From IMG/VR virus record IMGVR_UViG_3300028829_005056, positions 1-50,848 of that record: a stretch of 50,848 nt of DNA. One strand, 5' to 3'. The notes below the pieces were generated by a model. The model worked only from the letters and a program-made list of their open reading frames with translations, had not been told where the DNA came from and did not search any database. How positions within the stretch are numbered: the stretch's first letter is position 1; every line of letters begins with the position of its first letter. The stretch comes from a virus. Of this stretch, positions 14,472 through 50,848 are shown one piece after another. The position numbers and the translations under genes are program-made.

Positions 14472-14479
14472 ATATTTAT
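14472..14479 (+). promoter_or_regulatory. RTATTTAT motif before the tail sheath gene
   Basis: ATATTTAT, followed by TGTTAACGATAAG, 41 nt before the chosen sheath ATG at 14521 and just after the hairpin. Confidence 0.45.
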
Positions 14480-14520
14480 TGTTAACGATAAGAATAATAA
14501 ATTTAAAAACAAGAAATAAA

Positions 14521-27613: not shown

Positions 27614-30600
27614 TAAAATAAAAGGAATATGTACGGGTGGGAAATCACACCTTATCCAACCAAATGAGTTGTTTGGGCATGATGAGGATGATAATTTATT
27701 TGTACCACCAGAAGATTTAAATATTTATGTTGAATTAACAACAACCAAAAAAAATAGAACGGTAATTGATTTTACTGACTCTGGTGTTGTAGGTAATTCA
27801 TCGGAAAAAGGTAAATCTAAGGTTTCGTTTATTAGTGGCTCTGAAAATGGTAAAGGTAATGATGCTGATGGTAACCCTAAAACTTCACTTAGTACAAGTT
27901 ATACGGAATTAACAACAGTTTTCAATAAAACAGCGGATACAGAAAAATTTGGTATTGCTAGTATTGATATTGATTTTAACTCATCATATGCACCATTAAT
28001 TAAAATTAAATTTATTGATGTAAGAGGTGCATCACTATTTAACACAGGTAACCCACCTAAGTCAGAATATTCATCATTTTTTGACCTTCCATACCCAATA
28101 TTTACATTAAAGGTTAAGGGTTATTATGGTAAGGCAGTAAAATACTGTCTTCACCTAACTTCATGGAATGCTAGATTTAACGCTCAGACGGGTAATTTTG
28201 AAATCACAGCTGATTTTATTGGTTACACATACGCTATGCTTACTGATATGCTTTTAGGTTACCTTAGAGCAATCACAAAAACAGAGTCTGGATATGCTAA
28301 ATTCTTAAAAGCTAAATCTGAAATGCTTGACCCTAATTCATTGATAACAATCAACGAATTGTTAAATAAGATTGAAGATGTAAATACGGGTGTTACAAAA
28401 ATTGAAGAATCAAATGTTAATGTTCAAGAATTAGATGGAACTAAAAATCTAAAAAATGCTATTTCTAGAATTGAAGACTTAGTTAATGAGAGTATTGATA
28501 AAATTAACAAACCAACATCGGCTGATACCGCTGGATATGCCGTTTTTGTTTCACCTATAACAAATGGTTTATTCGGTGTTCATCACACCGTTGAAGACGC
28601 AAAACAAAATAGATTAGATATTAAAACATTTAAGCAATCAATGGAAACCCAAATCACCAATGTTAATTCATTGATTGAAACTGAGGGTGATAAATTAAAA
28701 TTAAGTGACTATGATAACGTTAAAACATTTGAATATTTCAGATATGCTGTAGTATATAGTGCGACAACAACTGATAAATCAACTAACTTTAGAAGTGCTT
28801 GGGAATTAAATGATGATGGTGATTTTGAAGAGTTTGAAGGTAATTTTTCTAATTGGAAGAAAAACCACACTAATCGCTGGATGAACCTTGATTTATTTGA
28901 CTTTTCAACAATTAAGAGTAATATAAAAGCACTTAATGACCAACTTGATAGAAAAGAAAAAGAATTAAAAGAAACAATAAGTACTACAATACAAGGAACA
29001 GTAACAGAATTATTAGGTTTTGAACCAACAATTAAAAATATATTTAGAATATTTACTGTTCATGCTGAAATATTCATGGAATGTTTAAAAGATACATCAA
29101 AAAAGGCTCAAGATGATATACAAGGATTAAGGAAAGCAGAATTTGATAAACTTCAAGACAAAGCCTTTGACATCAAGAAAGTTGACACACAAGACACTGG
29201 TACATTACCAGCTATAATATATCCATGGCCCCTATACAGAACACCTAGTGATAATAAAGCAAATAAAGGCGGTGCATTAGAAGAGGCTTGGTTAGGTAAA
29301 GATATACTTATTCCACAAAATGTCCCAGAATTAGTATTTGTTGAAGATTTACTTAAAGGATTATTATTAGTTAACAAAGAAGATGCTGAAAGGCAAGCTA
29401 GGGCTGACAACCCAGGTGTTATTGCTGATAGTTGGTACCCAGTAAGTCCATTTGACACACCATTATTTGGGATAACCCAAAACCCATATAAAACCAATGA
29501 AATAGGTAATACTAGTAATAAATTAGACCCATTATTATTAATGATGGAAAGAGCATTTATATTCTTAGGTTTTTCAAATAGACAATTATATTCATCTGAG
29601 GTTGAAGCAATGGCTACATTTGAAGCTAACACCGCTAATGGTGGGATAATGGATTCAGCAGTTAAATTAGCAATGGTTAGTGGTGATGATGACCCTACAA
29701 TTGCAAACGATATTATAAAATATTTTTTAGATGGTGGTAGCTCTGATGGTAGAAAGATTGCAATATCACAAAAACCAAATACTGGAAGACCATTTATGTA
29801 TTTAAATAATTCTGAGACCCATTATTATTATAAATATATCGAGGGTGGTGATAAAAAAGATGAAAAATTTATACCATTAAATGGTGATTTACATGGTTCT
29901 GAATTTTTTGATTCTAATGGAAAGTTTTTGTCGGCTAGTAAAATTAAGAAAAAAACAAAGGGTGATGACCCTAGTTTATTATTTCTTTCACCACCAGGTA
30001 CCAATATAAGTGGAGGTCCTAGACCGTACAGGTATGGACCTACATTCATGAAAATTATAGATAATAGCAAGTATAATAATACAGCCGCATTACAACCTAG
30101 ATATGAAACACAAGATACTACATTACAAACTTGGAAAGACCAAGTAAAAACAGCTAATGGAGAAACTGATTTTGTAGATTATGGTACACTTTATTCTATA
30201 GATAGAACTAAAGATTTTGGGAATAATCAAGCAGAAGATATTGCGGGTTTAAATATATTTGGTAATGATGCTGTATCTAGATATGCATTTACAACCATTG
30301 CTGCAATTAATTACTCTGATTCTGAATCATCCGCTGATGAACGTGAGATATATCCAGGTGGGGAAGCTAAAGGTGTATCAGAAGCGGCTTTCTATACCAA
30401 TGCTGATGGTTATGGTTCAACTTCATTAGCTTCGAATAATCAACCAGATAATTATAAAGATAGTTTTGGACAGGAAAACGGGATGTTAACTGGTTATGAA
30501 ATAAGCGATAGAGCTAAATACAAATTCAAACCAACAAACGGTGAAAATGCTGGTATTGAGAGTGAGTACTACCCAGTTAGAAACGCTAACAGAACAAGGG

Positions 30601-33600
30601 GGTTATTCAGTACGACAAACAGTACAATAGCACATGAAGATATAGGTCAAAATAGAGGGTTATTCATCTCAGATGTAAATGATATTTGTATACCACATAT
30701 TGATTTTGCAGTAGATTCATCAATCTATTCATTATTTGGTAGTCAATTATATTTTGAACAAAGACGTAGTTCTAGTCCAAAGAGTGCTAGAGCTTTTTTA
30801 TTCCTTCATACACTACCATGGAATGGTTTATTTATAGATGATGTAGCAAAGTATCATTCCAAGGGTACACAAGCTGCATTATTTAATAATAAAGATAGTA
30901 ATGTTTTAAGTAATATATTTGGTAGGAAAGCTGCATTTATACACGCACCTAAATTATGGTGTGCCTTTATGGGTGGTATTTTATGGAGAAATAGAAGCTC
31001 AACGGGTACAACAGAAAATAGTTCTAATGATATAATTTGGGAAGATGATGACTCAACAACATTTAAAGATTATTCTGGTAAAGTACCATCATATAAAGGT
31101 GGTTCTGGATATTACGACCCAATTGTTTTCGGTGTACGTACTAACCTAATCAATGAAAACTCCGAATTTAACCCATGTTATGTGCCAGAAGTGTTAGAGG
31201 GTGGTGCTATTCCATTTGGTAATCTACCTAGTAGACACCACTATTTAACACATGATAGTGCTGCTGTACCATTACATTTTAGTATTGATAATGAATATAA
31301 ATTGATTAGTGGCGTGGTAAAAAATCTACCTTTACAAATTAAAGAAGAATTTATAAAAACATTCTTTGAATTTGTAAATAGTTCTCAATGGGAAACGATT
31401 AGAAGGAATTATGAGGTGTTCCCAAATGAAAGGGATGGGAATGGTAATCTTAAACCTAATTCTTGGGATAATCCAAATTCTGGTGTTAATATAACATATA
31501 CTAATAAGGGTCGTACTGAACACCCATCTAATTGGTCTGGTAATTCACAAGAATGGGTTAAACTTTGGGAAAATGCAAACAATTTAGATAAGAATATAAT
31601 AAATTCAACCGAATCAATTGGTTCATCCATCAAACCAAAACAAGAAAAGATTAAAGGTGAAATAAAAGGAATTAAGAGTTCATGGGTAGAAAACAACTTC
31701 CCAAACTATAAACAATATGAATATATAAGCTCGATTAGACTAAAGGGTAGTACTGCATCAGCACCACCACCAGCAAAAATAAATTTATCCAATCAAGTTG
31801 GATACAATTGGGATATTGGTTATAAACCCAATACCGATACTAACAACATATTAGTTATGTTATTTAAAGAAACTGTTTGGATTGCAAATGGGTCGTATAA
31901 ACCTTGGGTTGACCATGAAGCAGATAGGTACAAAAATTTTGATAATACAATAGCAGTAAATAAACCTTTATTAGAACAATACGTCACTGCATTTGTTAAA
32001 GAGTTTAGGAGAATTAATAAGGTTGACACTATTAAAGATGAGGAAAACGACCAATTACAACAGATATTCAACACAATGGATAGTGACACAATACGTCTAA
32101 ATATTTATAGACATTGTAAGACTGTGTATGATAAATGGATTGCTGGTTCACAAGGTAATGTATTAGCAGCATGTGGTACTGATAAGGCAGATATTACTGA
32201 AAAAACCTCAAAAAAGGATAGGGTTAGTGGTAGTGAACATCGATTAATTGATAGTTTCCGTTTCGTAAATAGAGCCTTTAATGACCTAGGTGATAAATAT
32301 TTATTAAATCCTAAGATAATTAATGATATTGTCGTTGGGAATTTAAATCAAAGTTTTTATGATTTAATTTCAAGGGTATTAGCTGATAATAATTTTAATT
32401 TTATTGCATTACCAGCGTTTATTGATTTCAATAGTACTGATGAAATGGCTTCATTATTTAAGGCAGAGATATATAATCAAGAATTAGATGAAGCTGTTGC
32501 TGGACCAACATTCGTATGTGTTTATGTGGGACAAACATCAAATAAATTAGACCTAGGTGATGGTTCTGACTTCCCAAATGATGGTTTCGACTTTAAATGT
32601 ACAGATGGTCAATTAGAGGTCCAATCATTACCACTTGATTTTACAAAAGATAAAGCGGAACATGAACACAATGTAGTTGCGTTTGCAGTAAATTATGGTC
32701 ATCAGAATCAAAATATTTTTACTGATGTAAAACTAGACCAAAAAGAATTTTCCGAAACAGATGAATCATTACAAATAACTGACACAATAGGACAAAACGG
32801 TGCTCAAAGTAATAGAACACAAGCTGGACAAAATCTTTGGAATGTATATCAAGTTAGGTCATATTCAACAGAAATAACAGCCATGGGTAATGCTATGATA
32901 CAACCTATGATGTATTTTCAATTGAATAATATACCTATGTTCCATGGGGCTTATATGATAATTAAAGCAACTCATAAGATAACACCAAATCATATGACAA
33001 CTAATTTTAAAGGTGTTAGAACTAGATTTATTGATACACCATTAATTGATAGTAACACTATCTATATGTCTATGTTAGGTAATATCGGTAATGGTGATGG
33101 TAGTGGTGTATCTTCTCTTGATAGTGTTGCTGGTGGAACTGGCGGTGGAAGCACTTATACTCCAAAAGGTTCATACCCACCAATAATTGGTACCATAATC
33201 GACAACGGTGGTACCAATGGTGCTATTACACAAGGTACTGGTAATATATTTGCTAGGCAAATCCCTCAAATTGACGGTCTTAATAACAGGAAATTATCAC
33301 TCCCAGATGAAAACGCAATATTATTTAACGCTGTAGCACCACTTGAAAAAATGATGAACGCTTGGGTTGCATGGATGAAAGCAAATGGTTTTAAAGGTCA
33401 AAACGGTGACGGTAAATTCTATGCAACTATTGAAAGTAGCTTTAGAAGTATTGCTAAACAAGAACAATTAGAGTATCAATACAGAAACCAACCTGGTAGA
33501 GCAGCACCAGCTGGTTCATCACGACACGGGTGGGGAATAGCACTAGATTTAGGGTTCTATGATAAAGCTGGAAACAAAGTTCCTAGTAATAAGTCTTCAA

Positions 33601-34478
33601 AAGTTGGTTTTGGTATAGATACAAATCCAGCAATACAGTGGTTATATGATAACGCATATATTTATGGTTTTACTATACCACCAGAACTTAGAGACCAAAA
33701 AGGAACAGACGAGCACTGGCATTGGGAATACCATGGAACAGCTGCTAAGTGTCTTGTAACCGAACACCCAAGAGTTTGGGGTTATGAAGTTGACCCATCA
33801 AAGCAACAAGATAGTAGTGTTACAAATCCTAAAGATAGAGATGGTGTAAGGGCGAAATATGCAGATTGTACATATAGAAAAGTAAAAACCAAAGTTGAGG
33901 GTTCTGAAACTGCTGGTAATTATACAAAATCAACCGAGGGTGATTCAATAATTACTATTCCAGAAAATAAAGACTTATCACCTTATGATATTATAATTGT
34001 CTATGGTGGTCTTGATAGAGGACCAGACTGGATGCTTACTGAGATTGAAAAATCATCTGTAAAATTACTTAATGAAAATATATTCCTTATTGTGCCATAC
34101 ACAACTGATTGGACTAAGACTGAGGTTTTAATTAATAAGATAAAAAATAATAATAAGTTAAATAATTTTTCAATTGTTGGTTTCTCAGCTGGTGGTAAAA
34201 TTGCACAACAAAATATTGATAAAAAATCTTGGAACTTCATTGGACTAATCGACCCACTTACAAATAGTAATCTTATTAGTAATACTGATGTTAATTCAAA
34301 AACCTATATGTTATATAACCAAAATCATTGGTCTTGTTGTGCTAACATTCCGAAGGACCAACCAGCCTTGTCAGCTAAAATAAACAAAAAACAGAATGGA
34401 AATTCTGAATTTTTAAATATAAAACATGACGATATGGTTGGCACATTCTTTAAGAAATTCAAAAACCAAATAAGCTAA
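27606..34478 (+). CDS. Giant baseplate hub protein with M15 peptidase and hydrolase ends
   Basis: A 2290-residue single frame. Residues about 110-220 hold SIDIDFNSSYAPLIKIKFID and FTLKVKGYYGKAVKYCLHLT, a recurring baseplate module. Residues about 1740-1820 (SYSTEITAMGNAMIQPMMYF, then FHGAYMIIKATHKITPNHM) resemble gpD/gp27-type hub barrels. After a Gly/Ser-rich linker, residues about 1890-2060 form a peptidase M15 (VanY-like) domain with SSRHGWGIALDLG (about 1970) and DEHWHWEYHG (about 2034), the His/Asp/His zinc ligands. The last 175 residues look like an alpha/beta hydrolase: IIIVYGGLDRG, nucleophile elbow GFSAGG (about 2191-2196), a possible acid in LIDPL and a His in IKHDD. The M15 domain should cut peptidoglycan peptides during entry. 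The final domain's substrate is unknown. Confidence 0.85.
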   Translation: MANKIKGICTGGKSHLIQPNELFGHDEDDNLFVPPEDLNIYVELTTTKKNRTVIDFTDSGVVGNSSEKGKSKVSFISGSENGKGNDADGNPKTSLSTSYTELTTVFNKTADTEKFGIASIDIDFNSSYAPLIKIKFIDVRGASLFNTGNPPKSEYSSFFDLPYPIFTLKVKGYYGKAVKYCLHLTSWNARFNAQTGNFEITADFIGYTYAMLTDMLLGYLRAITKTESGYAKFLKAKSEMLDPNSLITINELLNKIEDVNTGVTKIEESNVNVQELDGTKNLKNAISRIEDLVNESIDKINKPTSADTAGYAVFVSPITNGLFGVHHTVEDAKQNRLDIKTFKQSMETQITNVNSLIETEGDKLKLSDYDNVKTFEYFRYAVVYSATTTDKSTNFRSAWELNDDGDFEEFEGNFSNWKKNHTNRWMNLDLFDFSTIKSNIKALNDQLDRKEKELKETISTTIQGTVTELLGFEPTIKNIFRIFTVHAEIFMECLKDTSKKAQDDIQGLRKAEFDKLQDKAFDIKKVDTQDTGTLPAIIYPWPLYRTPSDNKANKGGALEEAWLGKDILIPQNVPELVFVEDLLKGLLLVNKEDAERQARADNPGVIADSWYPVSPFDTPLFGITQNPYKTNEIGNTSNKLDPLLLMMERAFIFLGFSNRQLYSSEVEAMATFEANTANGGIMDSAVKLAMVSGDDDPTIANDIIKYFLDGGSSDGRKIAISQKPNTGRPFMYLNNSETHYYYKYIEGGDKKDEKFIPLNGDLHGSEFFDSNGKFLSASKIKKKTKGDDPSLLFLSPPGTNISGGPRPYRYGPTFMKIIDNSKYNNTAALQPRYETQDTTLQTWKDQVKTANGETDFVDYGTLYSIDRTKDFGNNQAEDIAGLNIFGNDAVSRYAFTTIAAINYSDSESSADEREIYPGGEAKGVSEAAFYTNADGYGSTSLASNNQPDNYKDSFGQENGMLTGYEISDRAKYKFKPTNGENAGIESEYYPVRNANRTRGLFSTTNSTIAHEDIGQNRGLFISDVNDICIPHIDFAVDSSIYSLFGSQLYFEQRRSSSPKSARAFLFLHTLPWNGLFIDDVAKYHSKGTQAALFNNKDSNVLSNIFGRKAAFIHAPKLWCAFMGGILWRNRSSTGTTENSSNDIIWEDDDSTTFKDYSGKVPSYKGGSGYYDPIVFGVRTNLINENSEFNPCYVPEVLEGGAIPFGNLPSRHHYLTHDSAAVPLHFSIDNEYKLISGVVKNLPLQIKEEFIKTFFEFVNSSQWETIRRNYEVFPNERDGNGNLKPNSWDNPNSGVNITYTNKGRTEHPSNWSGNSQEWVKLWENANNLDKNIINSTESIGSSIKPKQEKIKGEIKGIKSSWVENNFPNYKQYEYISSIRLKGSTASAPPPAKINLSNQVGYNWDIGYKPNTDTNNILVMLFKETVWIANGSYKPWVDHEADRYKNFDNTIAVNKPLLEQYVTAFVKEFRRINKVDTIKDEENDQLQQIFNTMDSDTIRLNIYRHCKTVYDKWIAGSQGNVLAACGTDKADITEKTSKKDRVSGSEHRLIDSFRFVNRAFNDLGDKYLLNPKIINDIVVGNLNQSFYDLISRVLADNNFNFIALPAFIDFNSTDEMASLFKAEIYNQELDEAVAGPTFVCVYVGQTSNKLDLGDGSDFPNDGFDFKCTDGQLEVQSLPLDFTKDKAEHEHNVVAFAVNYGHQNQNIFTDVKLDQKEFSETDESLQITDTIGQNGAQSNRTQAGQNLWNVYQVRSYSTEITAMGNAMIQPMMYFQLNNIPMFHGAYMIIKATHKITPNHMTTNFKGVRTRFIDTPLIDSNTIYMSMLGNIGNGDGSGVSSLDSVAGGTGGGSTYTPKGSYPPIIGTIIDNGGTNGAITQGTGNIFARQIPQIDGLNNRKLSLPDENAILFNAVAPLEKMMNAWVAWMKANGFKGQNGDGKFYATIESSFRSIAKQEQLEYQYRNQPGRAAPAGSSRHGWGIALDLGFYDKAGNKVPSNKSSKVGFGIDTNPAIQWLYDNAYIYGFTIPPELRDQKGTDEHWHWEYHGTAAKCLVTEHPRVWGYEVDPSKQQDSSVTNPKDRDGVRAKYADCTYRKVKTKVEGSETAGNYTKSTEGDSIITIPENKDLSPYDIIIVYGGLDRGPDWMLTEIEKSSVKLLNENIFLIVPYTTDWTKTEVLINKIKNNNKLNNFSIVGFSAGGKIAQQNIDKKSWNFIGLIDPLTNSNLISNTDVNSKTYMLYNQNHWSCCANIPKDQPALSAKINKKQNGNSEFLNIKHDDMVGTFFKKFKNQIS

Positions 34479-38912: not shown

Positions 38913-39995
38913 ATGCCGCCAAGAACTGGCACAAGAGAGAAAAAATTAAATACACTACTAGTCGATGGGAATGCATTGTTTAAGACAGGTTTCTTCGGGG
39001 CTAGTAGTGAATTTAACAAAGATGGTATCCATATAGGTGGTACCTATCAATTCATTACGGTTTTACGTAAATTATTAACAGAAACAATCTATCACCAAGT
39101 TTATGTCTTTTGGGATGGACTATTTAGTGGTAAATTACGTTATAATATCTATGAGGATTACAAATCTGACCGTGGAAAGGATTTTATTAATGGAACACAC
39201 ACAGTTGACCAAAGTGAAGCTAATCAGAAACTTAGGATAACCAAATACCTTGACGAATTATTTATTCGACAAATAATGGACGAAATGGTTGAAAGTGATG
39301 ATTATATTGCGTATTATTGTAAAACAAAGAAAGAATATGAAACAGTAACCATATGTACCAATGATGGAGATATGGCTCAATTGATTAACAAGGGTATTCG
39401 GATTTATTTCTGTAACCCACAAATTAAAAATTATGTAACAACAGAAAACTTTAATCTCTACTTTAATTATAAGTTAGAAAATGCCGCATTGGTTAAATCA
39501 ATGATAGGTGACCCTAGCGATAGTATAAGAGGTATTAAACGTTTAGGAGAACCAACACTCCTAAAACACTTTCCAGAATTATCAAAAAGGAAAGTAACCC
39601 TAGAAGAAATTCTTATAAAAGCAGATAAACTACAAGAGGACCGAAAACAAGTAAAGAAAAAACCACTTGGTGTCTTAAGTAATATTATCGAAGGTGTAAC
39701 CACCACGAAACCAGATGAAGATGGTAAATCACATGACCTAGTAATGGGAATGGAATTATACAATCGAAATTGGAAGTTGGTTAACCTAAAAGAACCCATG
39801 ATGACTGAGGAAGGTCTGGAACAACTAGAATTATATCTAGATGCACCACTATCCCCAGAAGGAAGGAGCATAAAGAACGTCTATACATTGATGAAAGAAG
39901 ATGGTTTAGATTGGCTAATAGGTGAGCGAAGGTTTGCCGAATACTTAATTCCGTTCAAAAAACTAATGGAACGAGAATTAAAAAATAACAAGTAA
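38913..39995 (+). CDS. rnh: 5'-3' exonuclease/flap endonuclease (T4 RNase H-like)
   Basis: A 360-residue FEN/PIN-superfamily nuclease. Metal-binding acidic residues are visible in LLVDGNALFK, FWDGLFSGKLR, TICTNDGDMAQL and MIGDPSDSIRGIKRLGEPT, the last being the helix-hairpin-helix region. In T4 this enzyme removes RNA primers from Okazaki fragments. I choose the ATG at 38913 over the GTG nine bases upstream (38904), because the ATG gives MPPRTGTREKK directly before the catalytic core; either start is possible. It is longer than T4 RNase H (305). It is followed 14 bases later by an unknown gene and then the helicase. Confidence 0.9.
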   Translation: MPPRTGTREKKLNTLLVDGNALFKTGFFGASSEFNKDGIHIGGTYQFITVLRKLLTETIYHQVYVFWDGLFSGKLRYNIYEDYKSDRGKDFINGTHTVDQSEANQKLRITKYLDELFIRQIMDEMVESDDYIAYYCKTKKEYETVTICTNDGDMAQLINKGIRIYFCNPQIKNYVTTENFNLYFNYKLENAALVKSMIGDPSDSIRGIKRLGEPTLLKHFPELSKRKVTLEEILIKADKLQEDRKQVKKKPLGVLSNIIEGVTTTKPDEDGKSHDLVMGMELYNRNWKLVNLKEPMMTEEGLEQLELYLDAPLSPEGRSIKNVYTLMKEDGLDWLIGERRFAEYLIPFKKLMERELKNNK

Positions 39996-40009
39996 ATAAA
40001 AATAAAATT

Positions 40010-40615
40010 ATGAGAGATAGAAGAATAGAACAACATCCGTTTGAATTTGTCTTAAGAATAAATGGTCATATCATTTGTCAGAGGTATTTCAATATTAACA
40101 ACTTTAATCCAGATGTGTTAGGGTCGATTGATATGAAAGAGTTATTAGACTCTATTGCTGGAGTAAACAACTCTTGGGGTACTATGGGTATAATCCCTAC
40201 CTACTTAAAAGAACGCTCTGCGGAGTACTTACAGTTTTTTGAGGACAATCAACACCTTTCTCACAAGAACAGAGATAATAATGTTGATAACATATGGGCT
40301 AAGTATGATAGCTACACATTCGAAATTAGAATCGAAGGTAAGGTTGTAGGTATATCTGAATTTTCTGGAAATATATTCCCACCAAAAATTAGATATAAGG
40401 TAAACTTAAAACATGCGACAAATATTTGGGGTGATAAAGTTTTAGATTCAAATGGTTCACCAAAAAATTTGGACATAATTCCAAATATTGTAAAAGAAAT
40501 TAAAAAAACTTTTTCACGAAAATCGTACGTTAAAGACTATATGGGGTACCCTTTAGATATTATGGCTCAACAAGAGAAAGAATATGCTAATTATGAGTCA
40601 ACTTTAGCTAACTAA
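40010..40615 (+). CDS. Unknown replication-block protein
   Basis: A 201-residue soluble protein with two similar strand-turn segments: FEFVLRINGHIICQRYF near residue 11 and YTFEIRIEGKVVGISEF near residue 103. This suggests two related halves or a duplicated beta domain. The linker between them is helical (SAEYLQFFEDNQHLSHKNRD) and the C-terminus is helical and charged. No family is recognised. It sits between the 5' nuclease and helicase genes, where T4-like phages often carry small replication accessory proteins. Confidence 0.65.
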   Translation: MRDRRIEQHPFEFVLRINGHIICQRYFNINNFNPDVLGSIDMKELLDSIAGVNNSWGTMGIIPTYLKERSAEYLQFFEDNQHLSHKNRDNNVDNIWAKYDSYTFEIRIEGKVVGISEFSGNIFPPKIRYKVNLKHATNIWGDKVLDSNGSPKNLDIIPNIVKEIKKTFSRKSYVKDYMGYPLDIMAQQEKEYANYESTLAN

Positions 40616-40618
40616 AAT

Positions 40619-40626
40619 GTATTTAT
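40619..40626 (+). promoter_or_regulatory. RTATTTAT motif before the helicase gene
   Basis: GTATTTAT then TTTATAGAAAG, 22 nt before the ATG at 40649. This shows the motif is not limited to virion genes. Confidence 0.45.
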
Positions 40627-40648
40627 TTTATAGAAAGTTTTAATAATT

Positions 40649-42064
40649 ATGAGTGAAGATAAGAAGAAGGATTTTGGGTATTTAGGTTTAGATTTTCAAG
40701 TAAGATTAATTGCTAATATTTTAACAGATAGAAAATTTGCAAACAATCTTATGGATATTCTAGATGCTAACTATTTCCAAGATGAATTCATTCGAAAAAT
40801 AGCTATCACAATTAAAAGTGCATTCGAAAAACATGAGACCGTTCCAGATATGGGAAGTCTAGAGATGAGACTCATGGATACAGCAAAGGATGATATTCAA
40901 AGAGATTTCGTACTCAAACAATTAAGAAGAGTTAAAGAAGCGAATTTGAATGATACCCTTTGGGTTCAAGAACGTGCACTTAAATTTTGTAAACAACAAG
41001 AACTAAAGAGAGCAATCAAAGAAATATCTACTATTAGTGACAATGGTGATATGGATGATTATGATGCATGTGTGGAAATCCTACAAAAGGCACTAGATAC
41101 TGGTGATGCGAAGGATGATGGGATAGACGTATTCCATGACATGGACAGTGTTTTATCTGATGACTTTAGAAAACCTATTCCAACTGGAATTAAGGGTCTT
41201 GATGAATGCATGGATGGTGGCTTATCAAAAGGGGAGTTAGCTGTTATCTTAGCACCGTTTGGTGTCGGTAAGACAACAATGGTCACAAAGATTGCTAACA
41301 CCGCTAAAAACAAAGAATACAACGTCCTACAAATCTTTTTTGAAGACAACCCTAAGGTTATTCAAAGAAAACATCTAGCTTGCTGGAGTGGGCACAATCT
41401 AAACGACCTTAAATATCATAAGGACGAGTTGAAAGAGATTGCACTTGCTAAATCAGAAGAAAGAGGACAAATTAAATTGAAAAAATTCCCAAGTGCTGGT
41501 ACTACAATACCACACATCAAGCAATACATAAGAAAACAAATCGCACAAGGATTTAGACCAGATATTGTTCTAGTTGATTATATTGACTGTATTCAGTCAA
41601 GTAAGTCATTTAAAGAAAGCTGGGATGCAGAAGGAAACGTGATGCGAGAGTTTGAAACTATGTTAGCTGAATTAGACATCGCTGGATGGACAGCAGTACA
41701 AGGTAACCGAAGTTCTATTGGTGCTGAGACTGTTGATTCGACGATGATTGGTGGTTCTATTAAGAAGGGTCAAATTGGTCACTTTATTGTTTCTATTGCT
41801 AAAACATTAGAGCAAAAGGATAGTGGTCATGCGAATATGGCAATTCTTAAGTCTAGATTTGGTAAGGACGGGATTGTCTTTACTGATGCAATCTTTGACA
41901 ACGGAACCATGAAAATTGAAATCGTTGAAGATAACGGTGGACAGAGTTTCCTTGAGAAAAAAGATGACATGTCAAACAAGGGACAACAACGTGTTAACAG
42001 CATACTAGATGCAGCAAAAGAGCGACAGAAAGCACTTGAGGCAGATGAAGAAGATGTATTATAA
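40649..42064 (+). CDS. gp41: Replicative DNA helicase (gp41/DnaB-like)
   Basis: A 471-residue hexameric helicase, nearly the length of T4 gp41 (475). The N-terminal helical domain (1-150) is followed by the RecA-like core: Walker A APFGVGKTT (202-210), a conserved acidic strand FFEDN, Walker B DIVLVDYIDC (about 308-317), and the sensor segment TAVQGNRSS (about 350). The C-terminus is acidic (LEADEEDVL). It unwinds the fork 5'-3' and normally works with a primase and a loader, neither of which is in the window. The stop codon lies inside the terminator stem-loop. Confidence 0.93.
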   Translation: MSEDKKKDFGYLGLDFQVRLIANILTDRKFANNLMDILDANYFQDEFIRKIAITIKSAFEKHETVPDMGSLEMRLMDTAKDDIQRDFVLKQLRRVKEANLNDTLWVQERALKFCKQQELKRAIKEISTISDNGDMDDYDACVEILQKALDTGDAKDDGIDVFHDMDSVLSDDFRKPIPTGIKGLDECMDGGLSKGELAVILAPFGVGKTTMVTKIANTAKNKEYNVLQIFFEDNPKVIQRKHLACWSGHNLNDLKYHKDELKEIALAKSEERGQIKLKKFPSAGTTIPHIKQYIRKQIAQGFRPDIVLVDYIDCIQSSKSFKESWDAEGNVMREFETMLAELDIAGWTAVQGNRSSIGAETVDSTMIGGSIKKGQIGHFIVSIAKTLEQKDSGHANMAILKSRFGKDGIVFTDAIFDNGTMKIEIVEDNGGQSFLEKKDDMSNKGQQRVNSILDAAKERQKALEADEEDVL

Positions 42065-42079
42065 CATCTTCTTTTTTTG
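42048..42079 (+). terminator. Terminator overlapping the end of the helicase gene
   Basis: AAGAAGATG (42048-42056) pairs with CATCTTCTT (42065-42073) around TATTATAA, which carries the stop codon, then a T-run to 42078. Confidence 0.82.
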
Positions 42080-42129
42080 TCACTAGTAACTATTAACACA
42101 CAAATAACAACTAAAAAAAAATTAAATTT

Positions 42130-44139
42130 ATGGATTTATCAACAGAGATACTGTCGGACATTACAGTATACATGAAGTACGCTAAGTACATCCCTCAACT
42201 ACAAAGAAGAGAAACTTGGCAAGAATTAGTGACAAGAAACAAAGAAATGCACCAAAAACATTACCCTCACATTACAGACGAAATTGAGGAAGCTTACAAA
42301 TTAGTCTACGATAAGAAAGTACTACCATCAATGAGGTCGTTACAATTTGGTGGTAAACCAATTGAGATTTCACCAAATAGAGTTTATAACTGTGCATATT
42401 TACCTATCGACCATTACAAGTCGTTTAGTGAGATTATGTTCTTATTATTAGGTGGAACGGGTGTTGGTTACTCAGTACAAAGACATCACGTAGAGAAGTT
42501 ACCAGAAATCAGAAAACCTAATTTAAAAAGAAATAGACGTTTCCTTATTCCAGATTGTATTGAAGGATGGGCTGATGCAATCAAGGTTCTTATGAGAGCA
42601 TACTTTGAAGGAATGTCAACACCTATATTTGATTTTTCAGATATTAGAGCAAAGGGTGCACTTTTGGTTACATCGGGTGGTAAGGCACCAGGTCCACAAC
42701 CACTTAAAGATTGTATTCATAATATTACAAAAATTCTTGACTCTAAAGAAAACGGTGATAAATTAACAACACTTGAGGTTCATGATATCGTATGTTACAT
42801 TGCTGATGCAGTATTAGCTGGTGGTATTCGTAGAGCGGCACTTATTTCATTATTCTCAATGAATGATGATTCTATGCTTACTTGTAAATTTGGAAATTGG
42901 TGGGAGCTTAATCCTCAAAGAGGTAGAGCAAATAACTCATCAGTGATTCTTAGACACAAGATTACCGAAGAAACATTTTTTGACTTATGGAAGAAGGTTG
43001 AGGAATCTAATAGTGGTGAGCCAGGTGTTTATTTCTCTAACGATAGAGATTGGGGAACAAACCCTTGTTGTGAAATCGCACTTAGACCATATCAATTCTG
43101 TAATCTTACAGAAATAAACGCATCCAACATTACATCACAAGCTGATTTAAATAAACGTGTACGTGCGGCTACCTTTATTGGAACACTTCAAGCTGGTTAC
43201 ACTGATTTTCATTACTTAAGAGATGTTTGGAAGGAAACAACAGAAAAAGACGCTCTAGTAGGTGTAGGAATGACTGGTATCGGTTCTGGTGCAGTACTTG
43301 AATATGACCTTCATGAAGCTTCACAAGAAGTTCTTACGGAGAACGCTAGAGTAGCAGCATTAATCAACATAAAGAAAGCGGCTAGAACAACAACGGTTAA
43401 ACCATCTGGAACTAGTTCACTTGTTTTAGGTACATCATCTGGAATACATGCGTGGCACAATGATTACTATATTAGAAGAATTAGAGTTGGTAAGAACGAG
43501 GCTATTTATAGTTATTTAGCAATAAATCACCCAGAATTGGTTGAGGATGAGTATTTCAGACCTAACGAGCAAGCAGTAATATCAATACCACAGAAGGCAC
43601 CAGAAGGTTCAATCTTTAGACATGAATCTCCAATGCACTTATTAGATAGAGTTAAGAATTTTAACACTAACTGGGTCCGTGGTGGTCATAGAACTGGTGA
43701 GAATACACATAATGTATCTGTAACTGTTTCTATTAAGAAAGAATTGGATATGATTTCAATCAAGGATGAAGAAGGTAACCCACTTAAGAGTACTGATGGT
43801 AAAGTTATCAAAGAATCTAAGAAAGATGAAGATGGTAACCCAATTTACAGAATCAACGAATGGGGTGGTATTGGTGAATGGATGTGGGATAATAGACATA
43901 CATTTAATGGTATTTCAGTTCTTCCATATGATGGTGGTAGCTATATTCAAGCACCATTTGAAGATTGTACTAAAGAAAAGTACGACGAGATGAATAAATC
44001 ACTTCACAACATTGACCTTACTAAGGTTATTGAAATTGAAGATAACACTGACTTAAGTGGTGAATTAGCTTGTGCTGGTGGTGCATGTGAAATTGACGTA
44101 GATTTATCAAGTATTAAAGATATTGATGAAACTGTGTAA
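42130..44139 (+). CDS. nrdJ: Adenosylcobalamin-dependent ribonucleotide reductase (class II)
   Basis: A 669-residue class II ribonucleoside-triphosphate reductase. Visible features: RVYNCAYLPIDHY near residue 87 with the first redox cysteine, the loop LLLGGTGVGYSVQRHHVEKL, NNSSVILRH, the radical/active-site motif NPCCEIALRP (about 311-320), TVKPSGTSSLVLG, and the C-terminal swinging-arm cysteines CAGGAC (about 646-651). It uses vitamin B12 coenzyme to form deoxynucleotides and needs no R2 subunit, matching the lack of an nrdB-type gene here. The glutaredoxin at 781 may serve as reductant. A long A-rich leader precedes it and a tetraloop terminator follows. Confidence 0.93.
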   Translation: MDLSTEILSDITVYMKYAKYIPQLQRRETWQELVTRNKEMHQKHYPHITDEIEEAYKLVYDKKVLPSMRSLQFGGKPIEISPNRVYNCAYLPIDHYKSFSEIMFLLLGGTGVGYSVQRHHVEKLPEIRKPNLKRNRRFLIPDCIEGWADAIKVLMRAYFEGMSTPIFDFSDIRAKGALLVTSGGKAPGPQPLKDCIHNITKILDSKENGDKLTTLEVHDIVCYIADAVLAGGIRRAALISLFSMNDDSMLTCKFGNWWELNPQRGRANNSSVILRHKITEETFFDLWKKVEESNSGEPGVYFSNDRDWGTNPCCEIALRPYQFCNLTEINASNITSQADLNKRVRAATFIGTLQAGYTDFHYLRDVWKETTEKDALVGVGMTGIGSGAVLEYDLHEASQEVLTENARVAALINIKKAARTTTVKPSGTSSLVLGTSSGIHAWHNDYYIRRIRVGKNEAIYSYLAINHPELVEDEYFRPNEQAVISIPQKAPEGSIFRHESPMHLLDRVKNFNTNWVRGGHRTGENTHNVSVTVSIKKELDMISIKDEEGNPLKSTDGKVIKESKKDEDGNPIYRINEWGGIGEWMWDNRHTFNGISVLPYDGGSYIQAPFEDCTKEKYDEMNKSLHNIDLTKVIEIEDNTDLSGELACAGGACEIDVDLSSIKDIDETV

Positions 44140-44159
44140 ACCATTGATAACACTACAAT

Positions 44160-44190
44160 AAAAGGGCTCGTCGAAAGATGAGCCTTTTTT
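44160..44190 (+). terminator. Strong terminator with GAAA tetraloop
   Basis: A 13-bp stem (44160-44172 with 44177-44189, two G-T wobbles) closes the loop GAAA and runs into T6. It ends the ribonucleotide reductase transcript. Confidence 0.92.
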
Positions 44191-44214
44191 ATTTGTACTA
44201 TTTAGTTATTAAAA

Positions 44215-44234
44215 ATATTTATTATACTATTTAT
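44215..44234 (+). promoter_or_regulatory. Tandem RTATTTAT-like motifs before gp25
   Basis: ATATTTAT (44215-44222) and a second TATTTAT preceded by C (44227-44234), then GTAATAAAG, ending 19 nt before the ATG at 44254. Confidence 0.5.
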
Positions 44235-44253
44235 GTAATAAAGAAAGTATAAT

Positions 44254-44640
44254 ATGGCAAATGGAAAATACATCAACATCAATTTCCCGTTCAAGGAGAG
44301 CGATAAAGGATTCTTTTTAGATTTAAACGACAACGATAAAGCAGCCATCAAAGCTGACCTTATGCATTTGATTTTAACTAGAAAGGGTGAGAGATTATAC
44401 CTACCAGATTTTGGTACCAATTTATTACAATATATATTTGAAGCAAACGACAGTGTTACTCAATCAGAGATAAAGACTGAAATTAGTGATACCGTAAAAA
44501 AATACTTACCTAACTTAGTAATTAATGAAGTAATAGTAGAACAAAGTGAAGCTAGTGAATATGCCGCTACTGTTAGAATTGATTATACCGTTACAGATGA
44601 TGCGTTCCAAGCAACTGATTTTGTATTAATAAACATTTAA
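44254..44640 (+). CDS. gp25: Baseplate wedge protein gp25-like
   Basis: A 128-residue protein, close to T4 gp25 (132). The family signature RKGERLYLPDFGTNLLQYIF (about residue 49) corresponds to the gp25 lysozyme-like/IraD-fold core, and the long C-terminal strand-rich half follows (VRIDYTVTDDAFQATDFVLI). gp25 initiates sheath assembly on the wedge and binds gp6. The gene is 5 bases upstream of gp6, as expected from the core gp25-gp6 module of contractile injection systems. Confidence 0.93.
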   Translation: MANGKYININFPFKESDKGFFLDLNDNDKAAIKADLMHLILTRKGERLYLPDFGTNLLQYIFEANDSVTQSEIKTEISDTVKKYLPNLVINEVIVEQSEASEYAATVRIDYTVTDDAFQATDFVLINI

Positions 44641-44645
44641 AAACT

Positions 44646-46484
44646 ATGGCAATTAAAAAAATAAATTATACATCTAGAAATTTTTCCGACGTTAGAGGGG
44701 AATTAATTGAATTTGTTAGACAATACTATCCAGAAATCTTCAATGATTTTAATGATGCTTCTGTAGGTATGATGCTTATAGAATTAAATGCGGCAGTCGC
44801 TGATATGCTTTCATTTAATACGGATAAAGCATTTCAAGAAACACAAATAGATTTTGCACAAGAACGAAAATCACTACTTTCACAAGCTAGAACATTTGGG
44901 TTAAAGGTACCAGGTAAGCGACCATCAGTATCCATCGTCGATTATTCAGTAACAGTTCCAGTATTAGGTGATACTTGGGACGTATCATACGCACCAGTGA
45001 TTAGAGAAGGTAGTCAAGTATCTGGAGCGGGTAAGGTATTTGAAAATTCAGTTGATATTGATTTTTCAAATCCATTCAATTTAGGTGGAATACCAAATAG
45101 ATTGATTATCCCAAACATAGATGAAAACGGTAATATATTAAATTATACTATTGTTAAAAGAGAGATGGTAACCAACGGTATAACAAAGGTGTTCAAGAGA
45201 ACAATCTCAGCAAATGATTCTAAGCCATTCTTAGAGGTTATTCTTCCAGATAATGATGTAATGTCAGTTTCATCTGTAATTACCTTAGAAGGTGTTAATT
45301 ACACCAAAATACCAACCTTAGACCAATTTTTAGATATCGATAACCAATGGTTTGAGATGGATGCATTAGCTGAGGATAAAATATATGTTGGTGATACAAG
45401 TAAAATATCTGATAATTCTGGTGTAATACCAGGTAAGTTCATTTCAGTTGATAAGCGTTTCATAAGAGAATACACCGACCTAGGGTTTACAAAACTAATC
45501 TTCGGTGGTGGGTCTCAAGACATATCAGCACTTTGTGATTTTGATGTAAATAAATCATTAATTAATAGAATTGGTGACTTCATCAATAATACATCATTAG
45601 GTCTTACATTACCATCTAATTATACGATGTATGTTAGATATAGAGTAGGTGGTGGTTCAACATCTAATCTTGGTCCTAACACAATAAACACTGTAGGTGT
45701 TACAAATATGGTGGTTAATGGTGCAAGTCCAGCAATCAACAACTCAGTTACTACATCATTAAAGGTTAATAACCCAATACCAGCTTTAGGTGGTAAGGAC
45801 CAACCTTCAATTGAAGAGTTAAGGAATTTAATTAAATATAATTTCTCAGCACAAAATAGATGTGTAACACTTAAGGATTATCAATCAAGAATTGCATTAA
45901 TGCCAGGTGAATTTGGAGTTCCATTTAGAACAGGTGTCTTCGAGGAACAAAATAAAATAAAGGTATATACATTAGGGTTAGATAGTAGTGGTAAATTAAG
46001 TAACACATCAACATCAGCACTTAGAGATAATATTGGGACATATCTTGCAGATTATAGAATGATTAATGATTATGTTGAAGTGGATAATGGTAGAGTTATA
46101 AATCTTAGTTTTGAAATTGACCTTTTTATTGAAAAACAATTCCCACAATCTCAAATAATGGCTGAGGTTATCAATCAAGTTAAAGATTATATGGATATTA
46201 ATAAATTTGATATGGGTGATGATATTTATCTTTCTGACCTTATGGAAATTATTAACAATGTTAATGGTGTAACCAATGTAATTGACATGAGAGTCTTTAA
46301 TAAGGTTGGTGATGGTAAATATTCATTAAATGAGATAGCACAACCATATGTTAATTCTTTAACTGATGATACGACAAGACAAATTGACTTATTAGGTCAG
46401 TTTACTTTATTTGGTGAAACAACCTCTATGTTTGAGGTTAAATATCCAGATAAGGATATAATGGTTAGAGTTAAGACTATATAA
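44646..46484 (+). CDS. gp6: Baseplate wedge protein gp6-like
   Basis: A 612-residue wedge protein of the gp6/J-like family (T4 gp6 has 660). The N-terminus (YTSRNFSDVRGELIEFVRQY, then DASVGMMLIELNAAVADML) and a block QARTFGLKVPGKRPS are family hallmarks. The C-terminal part includes CVTLKDYQSRIALMPGEFG, DYVEVDNGRVINLSFEIDLF and a NNVNGVTNVIDMRV strand. gp6 dimers form the inner ring of the baseplate that relays the contraction signal. Ends about 64 bp before the next gene. Confidence 0.94.
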   Translation: MAIKKINYTSRNFSDVRGELIEFVRQYYPEIFNDFNDASVGMMLIELNAAVADMLSFNTDKAFQETQIDFAQERKSLLSQARTFGLKVPGKRPSVSIVDYSVTVPVLGDTWDVSYAPVIREGSQVSGAGKVFENSVDIDFSNPFNLGGIPNRLIIPNIDENGNILNYTIVKREMVTNGITKVFKRTISANDSKPFLEVILPDNDVMSVSSVITLEGVNYTKIPTLDQFLDIDNQWFEMDALAEDKIYVGDTSKISDNSGVIPGKFISVDKRFIREYTDLGFTKLIFGGGSQDISALCDFDVNKSLINRIGDFINNTSLGLTLPSNYTMYVRYRVGGGSTSNLGPNTINTVGVTNMVVNGASPAINNSVTTSLKVNNPIPALGGKDQPSIEELRNLIKYNFSAQNRCVTLKDYQSRIALMPGEFGVPFRTGVFEEQNKIKVYTLGLDSSGKLSNTSTSALRDNIGTYLADYRMINDYVEVDNGRVINLSFEIDLFIEKQFPQSQIMAEVINQVKDYMDINKFDMGDDIYLSDLMEIINNVNGVTNVIDMRVFNKVGDGKYSLNEIAQPYVNSLTDDTTRQIDLLGQFTLFGETTSMFEVKYPDKDIMVRVKTI

Positions 46485-46502
46485 ACATTTCCTTTAATGG
46501 AA

Positions 46503-46510
46503 ATATTTAG
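46503..46510 (+). promoter_or_regulatory. Variant RTATTTAT motif (ATATTTAG)
   Basis: ATATTTAG then TATATTAATT, 37 nt before the ATG at 46548. It differs from the other copies in the last base, so this is the weakest member. Confidence 0.35.
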
Positions 46511-46547
46511 TATATTAATTGTTATAAGATAAATTAAAATTATTTAA

Positions 46548-46913
46548 ATGAGTTGTCAAAGTTGTAAAGAAAAAAGTAAAAATTTAAATTCACTAGTTAA
46601 GGGTGATGGGAGTGAAGACCCAATAACTAAAAATGTTGCATTCATTATATTCAATGTTCTAATTAGAATAATATTATTTGCAATATCATTATCAACCACA
46701 CCAGTTATTTTATTATTTATAGTGTGGATGTTATTTAAGACTATTATGCTTAATAAGGGTGATTTAAATATTATGCCATCACTAGTAATGGTTGGTAAAC
46801 AAATGGGTATTGGTAAAAGGAAATCAAAGAAATCAAAGGATTCTGAGGATATTGACACATCTAAACCAGAAAACTATGAATTTGATGAAAGAGTAGATAA
46901 AGTGAAACTATAA
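46548..46913 (+). CDS. Small two-helix membrane protein in the baseplate cluster
   Basis: A 121-residue protein. It begins MSCQSCKEK, a C-x2-C pair. Two hydrophobic helices follow at about residues 29-62 (VAFIIFNVLIRIILFAISLS, then PVILLFIVWMLFKTIML), and then a Lys/Ser/Asp-rich cytosolic-type tail (KSKKSKDSEDIDTSKPENYE). A membrane protein is unexpected between wedge genes. The stop is immediately adjacent to the ATG of the huge tail gene (TAAATG), so both are made together. Holin-like or infection-membrane roles are possible; neither is shown. Confidence 0.7.
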   Translation: MSCQSCKEKSKNLNSLVKGDGSEDPITKNVAFIIFNVLIRIILFAISLSTTPVILLFIVWMLFKTIMLNKGDLNIMPSLVMVGKQMGIGKRKSKKSKDSEDIDTSKPENYEFDERVDKVKL

Positions 46914-49900
46914 ATGTCAAAGTCAATTAGGATAAGAACAACACCAAATGGTAGTGATTCAAATATAAAAGTTAAAATCGAACAAGATTTTGATTTCATT
47001 GAAATATTATCATTGAAAATTTCTCAAGCAGAGGCGTATAGTCGTTTCTGTTCGGATTATGGTGTGGTCGTTGGTAGAGTTATTATCAATGACGGTTTCG
47101 GTGTTCCTAATGCTAAGGTTTCGGTATTTGTTCCAATAGAAGAGGAAGATGAATTAGATAGTGAAATTGCTGGTCTATACCCATACAAAGTTTTAGGGGA
47201 TAAAAATAGTGATGGGATTAGATATAACCTTTTACAGAAGGACCCAAAACCTAATGAGAATTGCTTCACACCAGCTGGTTCATTTCCATCTAAAAGAGAA
47301 GTGATTGACAATGATACGGTACTTGAAGTTTATGACAAGTATTATAAATACACCACCACAACCAACGAAGCTGGTGATTTCATGTTATTTGGTGTTCCAG
47401 TTGGTTCACATACACTTAATATGGATTGTGATTTATCAGACATTGGTATTGCATCACAAAGACCTTATGATTATATTTCACAAGGTGAGTCAATAAAGAG
47501 GTTTGAGTCTACAACAAAATTTAAGTCCGATAAGGATTTAGATAAGATGATTCAAATCAAAAGTTATAGGAAAGGTATCAATGTACAACCATTTTGGGGT
47601 GATAAAGACCAATGTGATATTGGTATTACAAGAAGTGACTTTGATATCAAGAAAAAAATAATACCATCAGCAATATTTGTTGGGAGTTTATTCTCAGATT
47701 CTGAAAAGAATTCAATAAACAAAAACTGTAGACCTAGAAAAGATTTAGGTAGACTTTGTGAAACAAACGCATCAGAAGGTACCGTAGAGATGATTAGGAA
47801 GACGTTAGACGGTACTATTGAACGTTTTGATGTTGAGGGTGGTCGAGTAATAGATGATTCGGGAGGATGGGCGTATCAAGTTCCTATGAACTTAGATTAT
47901 ATGGTAACCAATGAATTTGGTGAACTTGTACCATCGGATGACCCTAACAAGGGAATACCAACAAAGGCTAGAGTTAGATTTAGAATTGGTATGGATGTAA
48001 CTGGTGACGAGGGTAGACTTAGAACTAGTGCTAAATATTTAGTTCCACATAACCCACCAAATTCTTCTAATATAGATTACAACTTCAATGAGAATACTAG
48101 TGATGAACACTTTAGAGATTTTCATTGGAATAAAATATATACAGTATCTAATTTTATACCTAGAGTTCAATCAACTTGTCCAGGCGGTAAGTGTGCTGAC
48201 AATAGGAATATTACAGGTATAAAGGATGTTGATGATTGTAGTGGTGACAAGACACCATTCCCATATAATAGGGTTGATACAGATTTCAATCCACTGTTTT
48301 TAATATTATGTATTATATTAAATATAATCATTTTCATAGTATGGATGATTAATGCAATTGTTATAAATCTTATAAATGTTGTCCTAATTATTATCAATGC
48401 TGTATTATTGGTTATATGTGAAATTGTCTTTTTTATATCTAAAATTGTCTGTGCTTTAAAACACTTAACGGATGCGGATAAACGTGCTGAATGTAGAGAG
48501 AAGGGTTGTATGGGTGATTGTGATGATGAAGAATGTAAGGATTGTGAATGTAAGAATATTCTTAGTTATGTACCATGTATTGTAATGGAATGTGATGATA
48601 AGAATTGGGCACCAGGCTGCAAGTGTGATTACATTGAACCATCATCTATAGTAGTTGGTTCGAATGATTATGGTAATACAGATACAGGTGCTATTGGTTG
48701 TTGGGCTTCAATGACCAACGCTGAAAATCCTAAGAATCCAATCACTCACTGGAGTGGTGTTAATTATAATTCAGATAATTGTAGTCACCCAGGTCATGAT
48801 AGACTTGATGCTGGGCTATCAGATTGTTACGCAATACAATTAGCAGAAGCATTAAATATGTTTGAATTGGACTTTTATAATGATTGGATTAATGGTACAT
48901 TATATGCGTATTTATTAAAATACAAGAAGAAAAAGAATGGTAAGCAAAAATTCTGTGATTCTGATTGTGACACATCAGATTCGGATAATAATTGCGATAA
49001 GAGTTGGTTTGTTGACACTTGTACTAGTGAAGGTAGTGATAGGATTGATACCAAGAAAATAATTAAAAAGCAAATTAATGAAGGTCTTATAAAACAAGTA
49101 ACAACGACTAGACCAGACGGAAAGGAAGATGAGGTATTGTATTATGCACCTTATACTAAACACCACGATTTTAAAATGTTTGCAACAGAACTTGTACATT
49201 TAGGTTCTATATTTGATTGTGATTGGCAAGGAATTCCTAAGATACAATCCTACTTATTACCAACATCATATATTAGACCACCTTACACTGCTGAATATTT
49301 AAATGATGGGACAACAAAGGTCACATGTGGAATGACATCAACTGGTACTCAAGGTAGTGGTGGATTATTTTTTGATATTGATTGTATTGGACTTAAGGTT
49401 GGTGGTAGATGTAAAAACTTTAAGAGAATTTGTGAAATTGGTGTTGAATTACCATCAGATAATTGTTGGGTATTAAATGAATCCATTACAAATCCATATG
49501 GGTCTAAATTTAGAGATATATTCTATGCACTTAATAAGGATGATGGTGCAAATAAATTGAATTCATGGCCTGTTGGTGGAATACCAGTAGGTGGTTATGG
49601 TACTGCATTTGAAACAGCTAGTGGTGAAGGTTTTGCTTCTGATAGTTTAAATGCAGAATATGTTCAATTTAGAGGTAACTATATCTCTACTGACACTGAT
49701 ACAGCAAATGTAGACCAACCTGTGGAATCTTATTCACAATCTAAGAATTCATTTTATTTCTATTTTGGTACCGAGCCTGGTAAAAGTGGACTAGAAACTA
49801 TGAACAATAGATTCTTCGCTGAATGTGCTGTTGTACAAAAGAATGACTTCGTAATTCAAGGTATAGTAACTGACTCTACATCATTTACTGGTTGTACTGG

Positions 49901-50848
49901 TGAAATAAATCTTACAATTGTTGGTGGTTCTGGTGATTATACATATGTATGGACAGGACCTAACGGTTACACATCAACAGAATCAACAGCAAATAACGAA
50001 GATGGTGATATACAAGGACTTTGTGGTGGTATTTATACTGTTGTTGTTACTGATACTGATGGTGGTTCATCTACAACATCATTCACAGTTAACGCACCAA
50101 CAGCATTCGCTTGTGATGTAACAGCAGTACCAGCAATTCAAGCTGGTGTTAATGGTAGTATTATTCTTAATATAGCTGGTGGTGTACCAAATTATAGTTA
50201 CAGTATTAATAACAACCCATCTATACTTATGACTGGTTCATATGAGAATATACCACTTCCAGAAGGGACATACAACGTAGAGGTTACTGACACTAACAAT
50301 AATTCATGTACGGATACTGTAACAATTTCAGCAAGTACAGCAGCTTTAAATATTGCTGGTGCAACTACAGGTACTAACACCACATGTGGAAATGATAACG
50401 GTACACTTACCGTGACGATTGATTTCCAAACATTAGGTGGTGCTGCACCATATTCATATTTGATTACTGGACCTAATGGTTTCTCATCATCATCACTTAA
50501 CTTAACTAATTTAGAGGGTGGAACGTATACAATTCAAGTTACTGATTCAAGCCCAACACCACAGGTAGTTACTGATACATGGGTTATAGCACCATCTATA
50601 GGACCGACTATGAGTATTATTCCAGATTGGTTCTGTTGGTTAGCACCAAACACCACACCTACGATAACACCTAGTTTTAATGTAACAGCAAATGGTGGTT
50701 ACACAATTGAATGGGTGGGTTATGATGCGCTTGGTGCTGAGGTATTAGGATACTCTGGGTCAACTACATTCCCAGCGGGTGTTACTAATCCTATTATTAC
50801 ATCTTCAATGATAGGACCTTACGGAACTAACTTTAAATTGATTGATTC
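46914..50848 (+). CDS. Very large baseplate/tail protein with SprB-like repeats, partial
   Basis: The frame opens at the ATG at 46914 and is uninterrupted to the right edge, so at least 1311 residues; the C-terminus is outside. Residues about 40-165 resemble a carboxypeptidase-regulatory-like beta domain (GRVIINDGFGVPNAKVSVFV, then NEAGDFMLFGVPVGSHTL). Residues about 460-515 are strongly hydrophobic (LILCIILNIIIFIVWM and following). Residues about 525-570 are Cys-rich (CREKGCMGDCDDEECKDCEC). From about residue 990 there are SprB-like repeats (GGSGDYTYVWTGPNGYTS, GGIYTVVVTDTDGG, then CDVTA and GGVPNYSYSI, EGTYNVEVTDTNNN). Position after gp6 suggests a wedge or peripheral protein like T4 gp7; the repeats suggest surface adhesion. 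Confidence 0.85.
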   Translation, partial: MSKSIRIRTTPNGSDSNIKVKIEQDFDFIEILSLKISQAEAYSRFCSDYGVVVGRVIINDGFGVPNAKVSVFVPIEEEDELDSEIAGLYPYKVLGDKNSDGIRYNLLQKDPKPNENCFTPAGSFPSKREVIDNDTVLEVYDKYYKYTTTTNEAGDFMLFGVPVGSHTLNMDCDLSDIGIASQRPYDYISQGESIKRFESTTKFKSDKDLDKMIQIKSYRKGINVQPFWGDKDQCDIGITRSDFDIKKKIIPSAIFVGSLFSDSEKNSINKNCRPRKDLGRLCETNASEGTVEMIRKTLDGTIERFDVEGGRVIDDSGGWAYQVPMNLDYMVTNEFGELVPSDDPNKGIPTKARVRFRIGMDVTGDEGRLRTSAKYLVPHNPPNSSNIDYNFNENTSDEHFRDFHWNKIYTVSNFIPRVQSTCPGGKCADNRNITGIKDVDDCSGDKTPFPYNRVDTDFNPLFLILCIILNIIIFIVWMINAIVINLINVVLIIINAVLLVICEIVFFISKIVCALKHLTDADKRAECREKGCMGDCDDEECKDCECKNILSYVPCIVMECDDKNWAPGCKCDYIEPSSIVVGSNDYGNTDTGAIGCWASMTNAENPKNPITHWSGVNYNSDNCSHPGHDRLDAGLSDCYAIQLAEALNMFELDFYNDWINGTLYAYLLKYKKKKNGKQKFCDSDCDTSDSDNNCDKSWFVDTCTSEGSDRIDTKKIIKKQINEGLIKQVTTTRPDGKEDEVLYYAPYTKHHDFKMFATELVHLGSIFDCDWQGIPKIQSYLLPTSYIRPPYTAEYLNDGTTKVTCGMTSTGTQGSGGLFFDIDCIGLKVGGRCKNFKRICEIGVELPSDNCWVLNESITNPYGSKFRDIFYALNKDDGANKLNSWPVGGIPVGGYGTAFETASGEGFASDSLNAEYVQFRGNYISTDTDTANVDQPVESYSQSKNSFYFYFGTEPGKSGLETMNNRFFAECAVVQKNDFVIQGIVTDSTSFTGCTGEINLTIVGGSGDYTYVWTGPNGYTSTESTANNEDGDIQGLCGGIYTVVVTDTDGGSSTTSFTVNAPTAFACDVTAVPAIQAGVNGSIILNIAGGVPNYSYSINNNPSILMTGSYENIPLPEGTYNVEVTDTNNNSCTDTVTISASTAALNIAGATTGTNTTCGNDNGTLTVTIDFQTLGGAAPYSYLITGPNGFSSSSLNLTNLEGGTYTIQVTDSSPTPQVVTDTWVIAPSIGPTMSIIPDWFCWLAPNTTPTITPSFNVTANGGYTIEWVGYDALGAEVLGYSGSTTFPAGVTNPIITSSMIGPYGTNFKLID

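Follow-up and report, generated by a model that had tools for sequence, protein, structure and literature searches.

The last gene of a 50,848-base virus record (the window, by which the whole stretch of DNA analysed is meant) was described in a first-pass annotation as a phage tail protein carrying repeats of the type found in the adhesin SprB, a module that the phage was thought to have borrowed from its host. The questions raised by this locus are whether the repeats are of SprB type, whether the protein belongs to the tail, and what such an array would do for the phage. The frame encodes 1311 amino acids and is open at the window end, and the rest of the gene was obtained from contig L004, which is 99.98% identical in DNA to window positions 38913-50848; the full gene (L004:8001-12506) encodes 1501 amino acids, with 190 codons beyond the window end. 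The gene, its parts and its upstream neighbours are as follows.

44254-44640, plus strand: gp25-like baseplate wedge protein (PHROG baseplate wedge, E 4e-23; synteny)
44646-46484, plus strand: gp6-like baseplate wedge protein (PHROG baseplate wedge, E 4e-17; synteny)
46548-46913, plus strand: small protein of 121 aa that includes a hydrophobic stretch; its gene immediately precedes the repeat-bearing gene and is upstream in the nearest relatives too
46914-50846, plus strand: tail/baseplate-region protein, 1311 aa in the window and 1501 aa in L004
46914-48263, plus strand: conserved N-terminal region, aa 1-450, 57-83% identical in nearer relatives
48279-48467, plus strand: strongly hydrophobic, membrane-like stretch, aa 456-518, by hydropathy scan; present in most relatives
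48711-49793, plus strand: middle region, aa 600-960, of moderate conservation
49866-50117, plus strand: Ig-like domain 1, SprB-type, aa 985-1068 (PF13573 21.1 bits; bacterial SprB-repeat profile 28.6 bits)
50121-50354, plus strand: Ig-like domain 2, SprB-type, aa 1070-1147 (PF13573 27.3 bits; bacterial profile 30.1 bits)
50364-50585, plus strand: Ig-like domain 3, SprB-type, aa 1151-1224 (PF13573 18.7 bits; bacterial profile 28.3 bits)
50586-50846, plus strand: start of Ig-like domain 4, diverged and without SprB match, from the model of L004 aa 961-1501

Inspection of the repeat region showed that two of its motifs recur in frame with regular spacing, G-G-x-x-x-Y-x-Y at aa 1004, 1089 and 1175 (49923, 50178 and 50436) and a closing G-x-Y-x-[VI]-x-V-T-D at aa 1039, 1118 and 1203, with a double G in the first and third; the closing motif, observed three times, never appeared when the C-terminal part was shuffled 2000 times. 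The C-x-G-x-[IL]-x-[LI] motif, earlier taken to be repeated, is present but occurs in frame once only, as C-x-G-x-I-x-L at aa 994 (49893). The Pfam profile proposed for checking the assignment, PF13573 (SprB), matched the window protein at E 4.9e-8 in three stretches (49866-49964, 50145-50216 and 50364-50477), its 32.9 bits, which exceed the gathering score of 28, being a sum over the stretches, of which the best gives 27.3. Of the span first assigned to the repeats, 49880-50848, the last ~260 bases, where Ig-like domain 4 begins, are without a PF13573 match. In the full-length gene on L004 the same profile gave 35.3 bits over four stretches; further Ig-like domains follow past the window end, the final one again SprB-like.

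A second profile, built from 16 repeats of three proteins in a sample of Bacteroidota genomes, scored 82.9 bits with the full protein over four domains (the three of the window and the last) and matched none of 50 shuffles. Profile-profile comparison of the phage and bacterial repeats aligned 72 columns with 99.4% probability, and the two share the signatures C/N-G-x-I, G-G-x-P-Y-x-Y and G-x-Y-x-V-x-V-T-D. Among 26 related viral records PF13573 was above its cut-off in 11, and in 19 at E<=0.01; relatives reached 104 bits with the bacterial profile, several giving 42-50 bits in a single domain. The repeats of the window itself lie at the diverged end of their family.

That the gene belongs to the tail, as had been proposed, is supported by its neighbourhood. 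It is the second gene after the gp6-like wedge gene, and the order gp25, gp6, repeat gene and genes of 570, 292, 306 and 930 amino acids is kept wherever a nearer relative extends through this stretch; PHROGs also identified sheath, tube, hub and tape-measure genes. By its conserved position beside gp25 and gp6, the repeat gene is a T4-like baseplate-region gene. The protein itself is less informative at its N-terminus: residues 1-450 matched no family, and no match to T4 gp7 or gp10 was obtained with hhalign (family profile against single sequences), so that it is from gene order that the protein's place in the baseplate is taken. N-terminal homology to gp109 of Flavobacterium phage immuto and to a protein near gp6 in Microcystis phage Mel-JY01 was considered and rejected, none being found. 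A pLDDT-60 model of the N-terminal region has a weak fold likeness to Cna-B/carboxypeptidase-regulatory beta sandwiches, and aa 460-516, within the membrane-like stretch, are predicted as one long helix. T4 gp7 is also annotated with a predicted membrane domain; the stretch in the baseplate-region protein is of ~60 residues, and homology between the two was not found.

Relatives of the protein are encoded at 37 viral loci, and none was detected in a cultured phage by tblastn at E 1e-5 (one chance match appeared at E 5). All 16 nearer-branch proteins with a complete 3' end carry the Ig array, and the distant relatives on L025 and L039 are without it; the L025 protein (L025:7995-18494, on a 348-kb viral contig) is a 3499-aa version, likewise without SprB repeats. 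Pairwise identities of Ig1, Ig2 and Ig3 track that of the N-terminus (Mantel r 0.92, 0.85 and 0.87), so that the array was inherited with the gene. As judged from these comparisons, it is long resident in the phage lineage and not a recently captured host gene. In close pairs the Ig domains nevertheless diverge faster than the N-terminus, as in L005 and L011, where they are 38-64% identical against 88%; this fits what is expected of an exposed binding part, and relaxed constraint would look alike. On the minus strand of L056 (1017-5759) a second tail-region protein, of 1580 amino acids, contains six SprB stretches and scores 103 bits with PF13573, showing that a single virus can carry SprB repeats in more than one gene.

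Structure prediction for L004 aa 961-1501 gave tandem beta sandwiches with a mean pLDDT of 83.6. The four best Foldseek matches of this model in the PDB were fragments of GhpA, the grappling-hook protein of the Bacteroidota member Aureispira, ahead of generic Ig and FN3 chains and at 16-20% identity. VIA-align ranked generic FN3/Ig chains first, and the likeness to GhpA therefore rests on Foldseek; by sequence profile GhpA was not listed at E<=1. GhpA is, moreover, located on the cell surface and 5009 or more residues long, and the whole arrays superpose poorly, so that the modelled resemblance is a lead and not proof of kinship. Among viral structures in BFVD the best match of the array was A0A6J5LD72, a protein of an uncultured member of the Caudovirales which, like A0A6J5LDA4, is named 'SprB repeat'; phage proteins of that name are thus already in databases.

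A Bacteroidota host had been assumed for the phage, and is probably correct. A GGAG, GAGG or AGGA site was found in the usual place in 0 of 37 genes, and among mechanically called genes the Shine-Dalgarno fraction is 0.03, close to the 0.04 of Flavobacterium phage immuto and unlike the 0.62 of T4. Such near-absence supports a Bacteroidota host and fits that phylum, although other groups with weak Shine-Dalgarno use are also compatible. The Bacteroidota promoter motif TANNTTTG was dropped as host evidence, with 3 intergenic occurrences against 1.9 expected, not above shuffles. Bacterial-assembly records holding relatives are labelled Mycoplasmatota, Clostridiales, Wolfebacteria and Paludibacteraceae, labels too discordant for binning to decide the host. 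Immuto phages and Microcystis phage Mel-JY01 are among the closest annotated relatives for gp6; Mel-JY01 (L046) is also closest for ribonucleotide reductase, at 64% identity. Mel-JY01, a cultured phage with a reported cyanobacterial host, shares similarity with the window in its sheath as well as in gp6. No tRNA genes were found in the window.

The explanation that we favour, with a probability of roughly 0.58, is that the gene encodes a baseplate-associated protein whose outward Ig rod binds host-surface polymers in a Bacteroidota phage. The product would be a large component associated with the baseplate of a T4-like contractile tail, anchored in the tail by its conserved N-terminal ~960 residues, and its C-terminus would project outward as a rod of some six Ig-like domains, three or more being SprB-type. 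Through weak, multivalent and reversible binding of polysaccharides, either on the host surface or around the host, the rod may bring the tail close, after which dedicated fibres would attach irreversibly. We infer the place in the virion, the outward orientation, the binding of glycans, the ligand and the timing during adsorption; the repeats most probably serve in reversible binding of surface polymers. Ig-like domains of the BACON and PKD types serve as adhesins in Bacteroidota gut phages (PMC13370021). A more specific proposal, that a lineage of uncultured T4-like Bacteroidota phages uses fixed baseplate repeats to bind the same polymers as the adhesins of its hosts, is unlikely on present evidence; if true, phage attachment would mimic host adhesion.

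Other readings of the array have to be weighed against reversible polymer binding, beginning with the SprB label itself. An Ig/PKD module of generic phage type, resembling Hoc or the decoration protein of phage T5, could account for the domains, their SprB label being no more than an overlap between profiles. T5, which infects E. coli, does pass the PF13573 cut-off, barely, with 28.2 bits in gene T5.151, whose product has the same sequence as a phage decoration protein of known structure, and with the bacterial profile the T5 domain (29.2 bits) equals the window domains (28-30 bits); among PHROGs the protein matched 'Hoc-like head decoration' and nothing else (PHROG 2973, E 2e-9), over the Ig domains only, in a gene that lies among baseplate genes. 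Closeness to SprB over a generic Ig fold is therefore not decided by the window's domains, but it is favoured by the relatives that reach as much as 50 bits in one domain, by the L056 protein, and by T4 Hoc, which has no score with the bacterial profile. In the search that included T5, PF13573 was missing from all eight remaining phage records (T4, G, lambda, phiST, BS-TP3, RM378, FCL-2 and crAss001), as it was from Flavobacterium phage immuto, and mere profile overlap is judged quite unlikely. The array might instead be a structural spacer or stabiliser that extends, stiffens or assists assembly without binding a receptor. Its inheritance together with the core agrees with such a role, as do structural match lists consisting mostly of generic Ig/FN3 chains, with no adhesin singled out by VIA-align; however, the far faster divergence of the Ig domains and the second SprB-bearing tail-region protein of L056 fit surface exposure better than a fixed contact, and we regard a purely structural role as rather unlikely.

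The earlier idea of a captured host adhesin module, aimed at the gliding machinery or at the polymers bound by SprB, fares worst and is very unlikely. SprB-type repeats are indeed common in the phylum of the Paludibacteraceae record, PF13573 being above cut-off in 44 of 198 sampled Bacteroidota genomes, and 0 of 199 genomes matched from the phylum of the record titled Clostridiales; in addition, mutations in gld and spr genes gave phage-resistant Flavobacterium columnare (PMC9233685), and the gliding machinery has been proposed as a phage receptor (PMC7345892). The F. columnare mutations concern other phages, however, and no tie was found between this phage and a gliding host. Recent capture has left no sign, the repeats being present in all complete nearer relatives and evolving in step with the phage part, which gives no support to a borrowed adhesin. 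Nor do the repeats point to gliding, since they are not specific to gliding proteins: a fucoidanase that is secreted carries them (PMC7698502), as do secreted type IX substrates encoded next to polymorphic-toxin genes (PMC7073777). SprB repeats are a surface module and not a gliding signature, and together with the T5 match these cases indicate that the repeats mark an adhesive Ig module, not gliding machinery. Their use to strengthen the host assignment holds modestly, given that an E. coli phage also passes the cut-off.

The favoured tail-borne polymer binder can be set beside several known systems. With SprB of Flavobacterium johnsoniae and other SprB-repeat proteins of Bacteroidota it has in common the same tandem Ig-like repeat of ~75-85 residues, but it lies in the tail region, has three to four recognisable repeats and an unrelated N-terminus. 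No signal peptide is apparent on inspection of the N-terminus, MSKSIRIRTTPNGSDSNIKV, and the full-length protein had no NCBIfam match, a type IX C-terminal sorting domain included; lacking both, the phage protein is not SprB itself. The BACON and PKD adhesins of Bacteroidota gut phages are also Ig-like modules near structural genes, but are not of SprB type and belong to a mucosal setting (PMC13370021). The T5 decoration protein, its domain SprB-like by score, and T4 Hoc likewise place Ig-like domains on the virion, but as head decoration and with one or a few such domains. The SprB-type repeat thereby joins BACON and PKD among the Ig-like modules of Bacteroidota phages, and is linked with a conserved gene of the baseplate region, in a lineage for which searches with that gene revealed no cultured member. 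A viral annotation of SprB repeats is accordingly no proof of a gliding host, nor of a gene captured from the host.

Two other genes of the window may be recorded here. The tail sheath protein (14479-17370) is unusually long at 963 amino acids, and the 496 positions of its best-matching PHROG are spread across residues 10-960, a spread that points to a large insertion. Between the tail and replication genes, at 27606-34478, lies a gene whose 2290-aa product has, close to the C-terminus, a D-Ala-D-Ala carboxypeptidase domain of VanY type.
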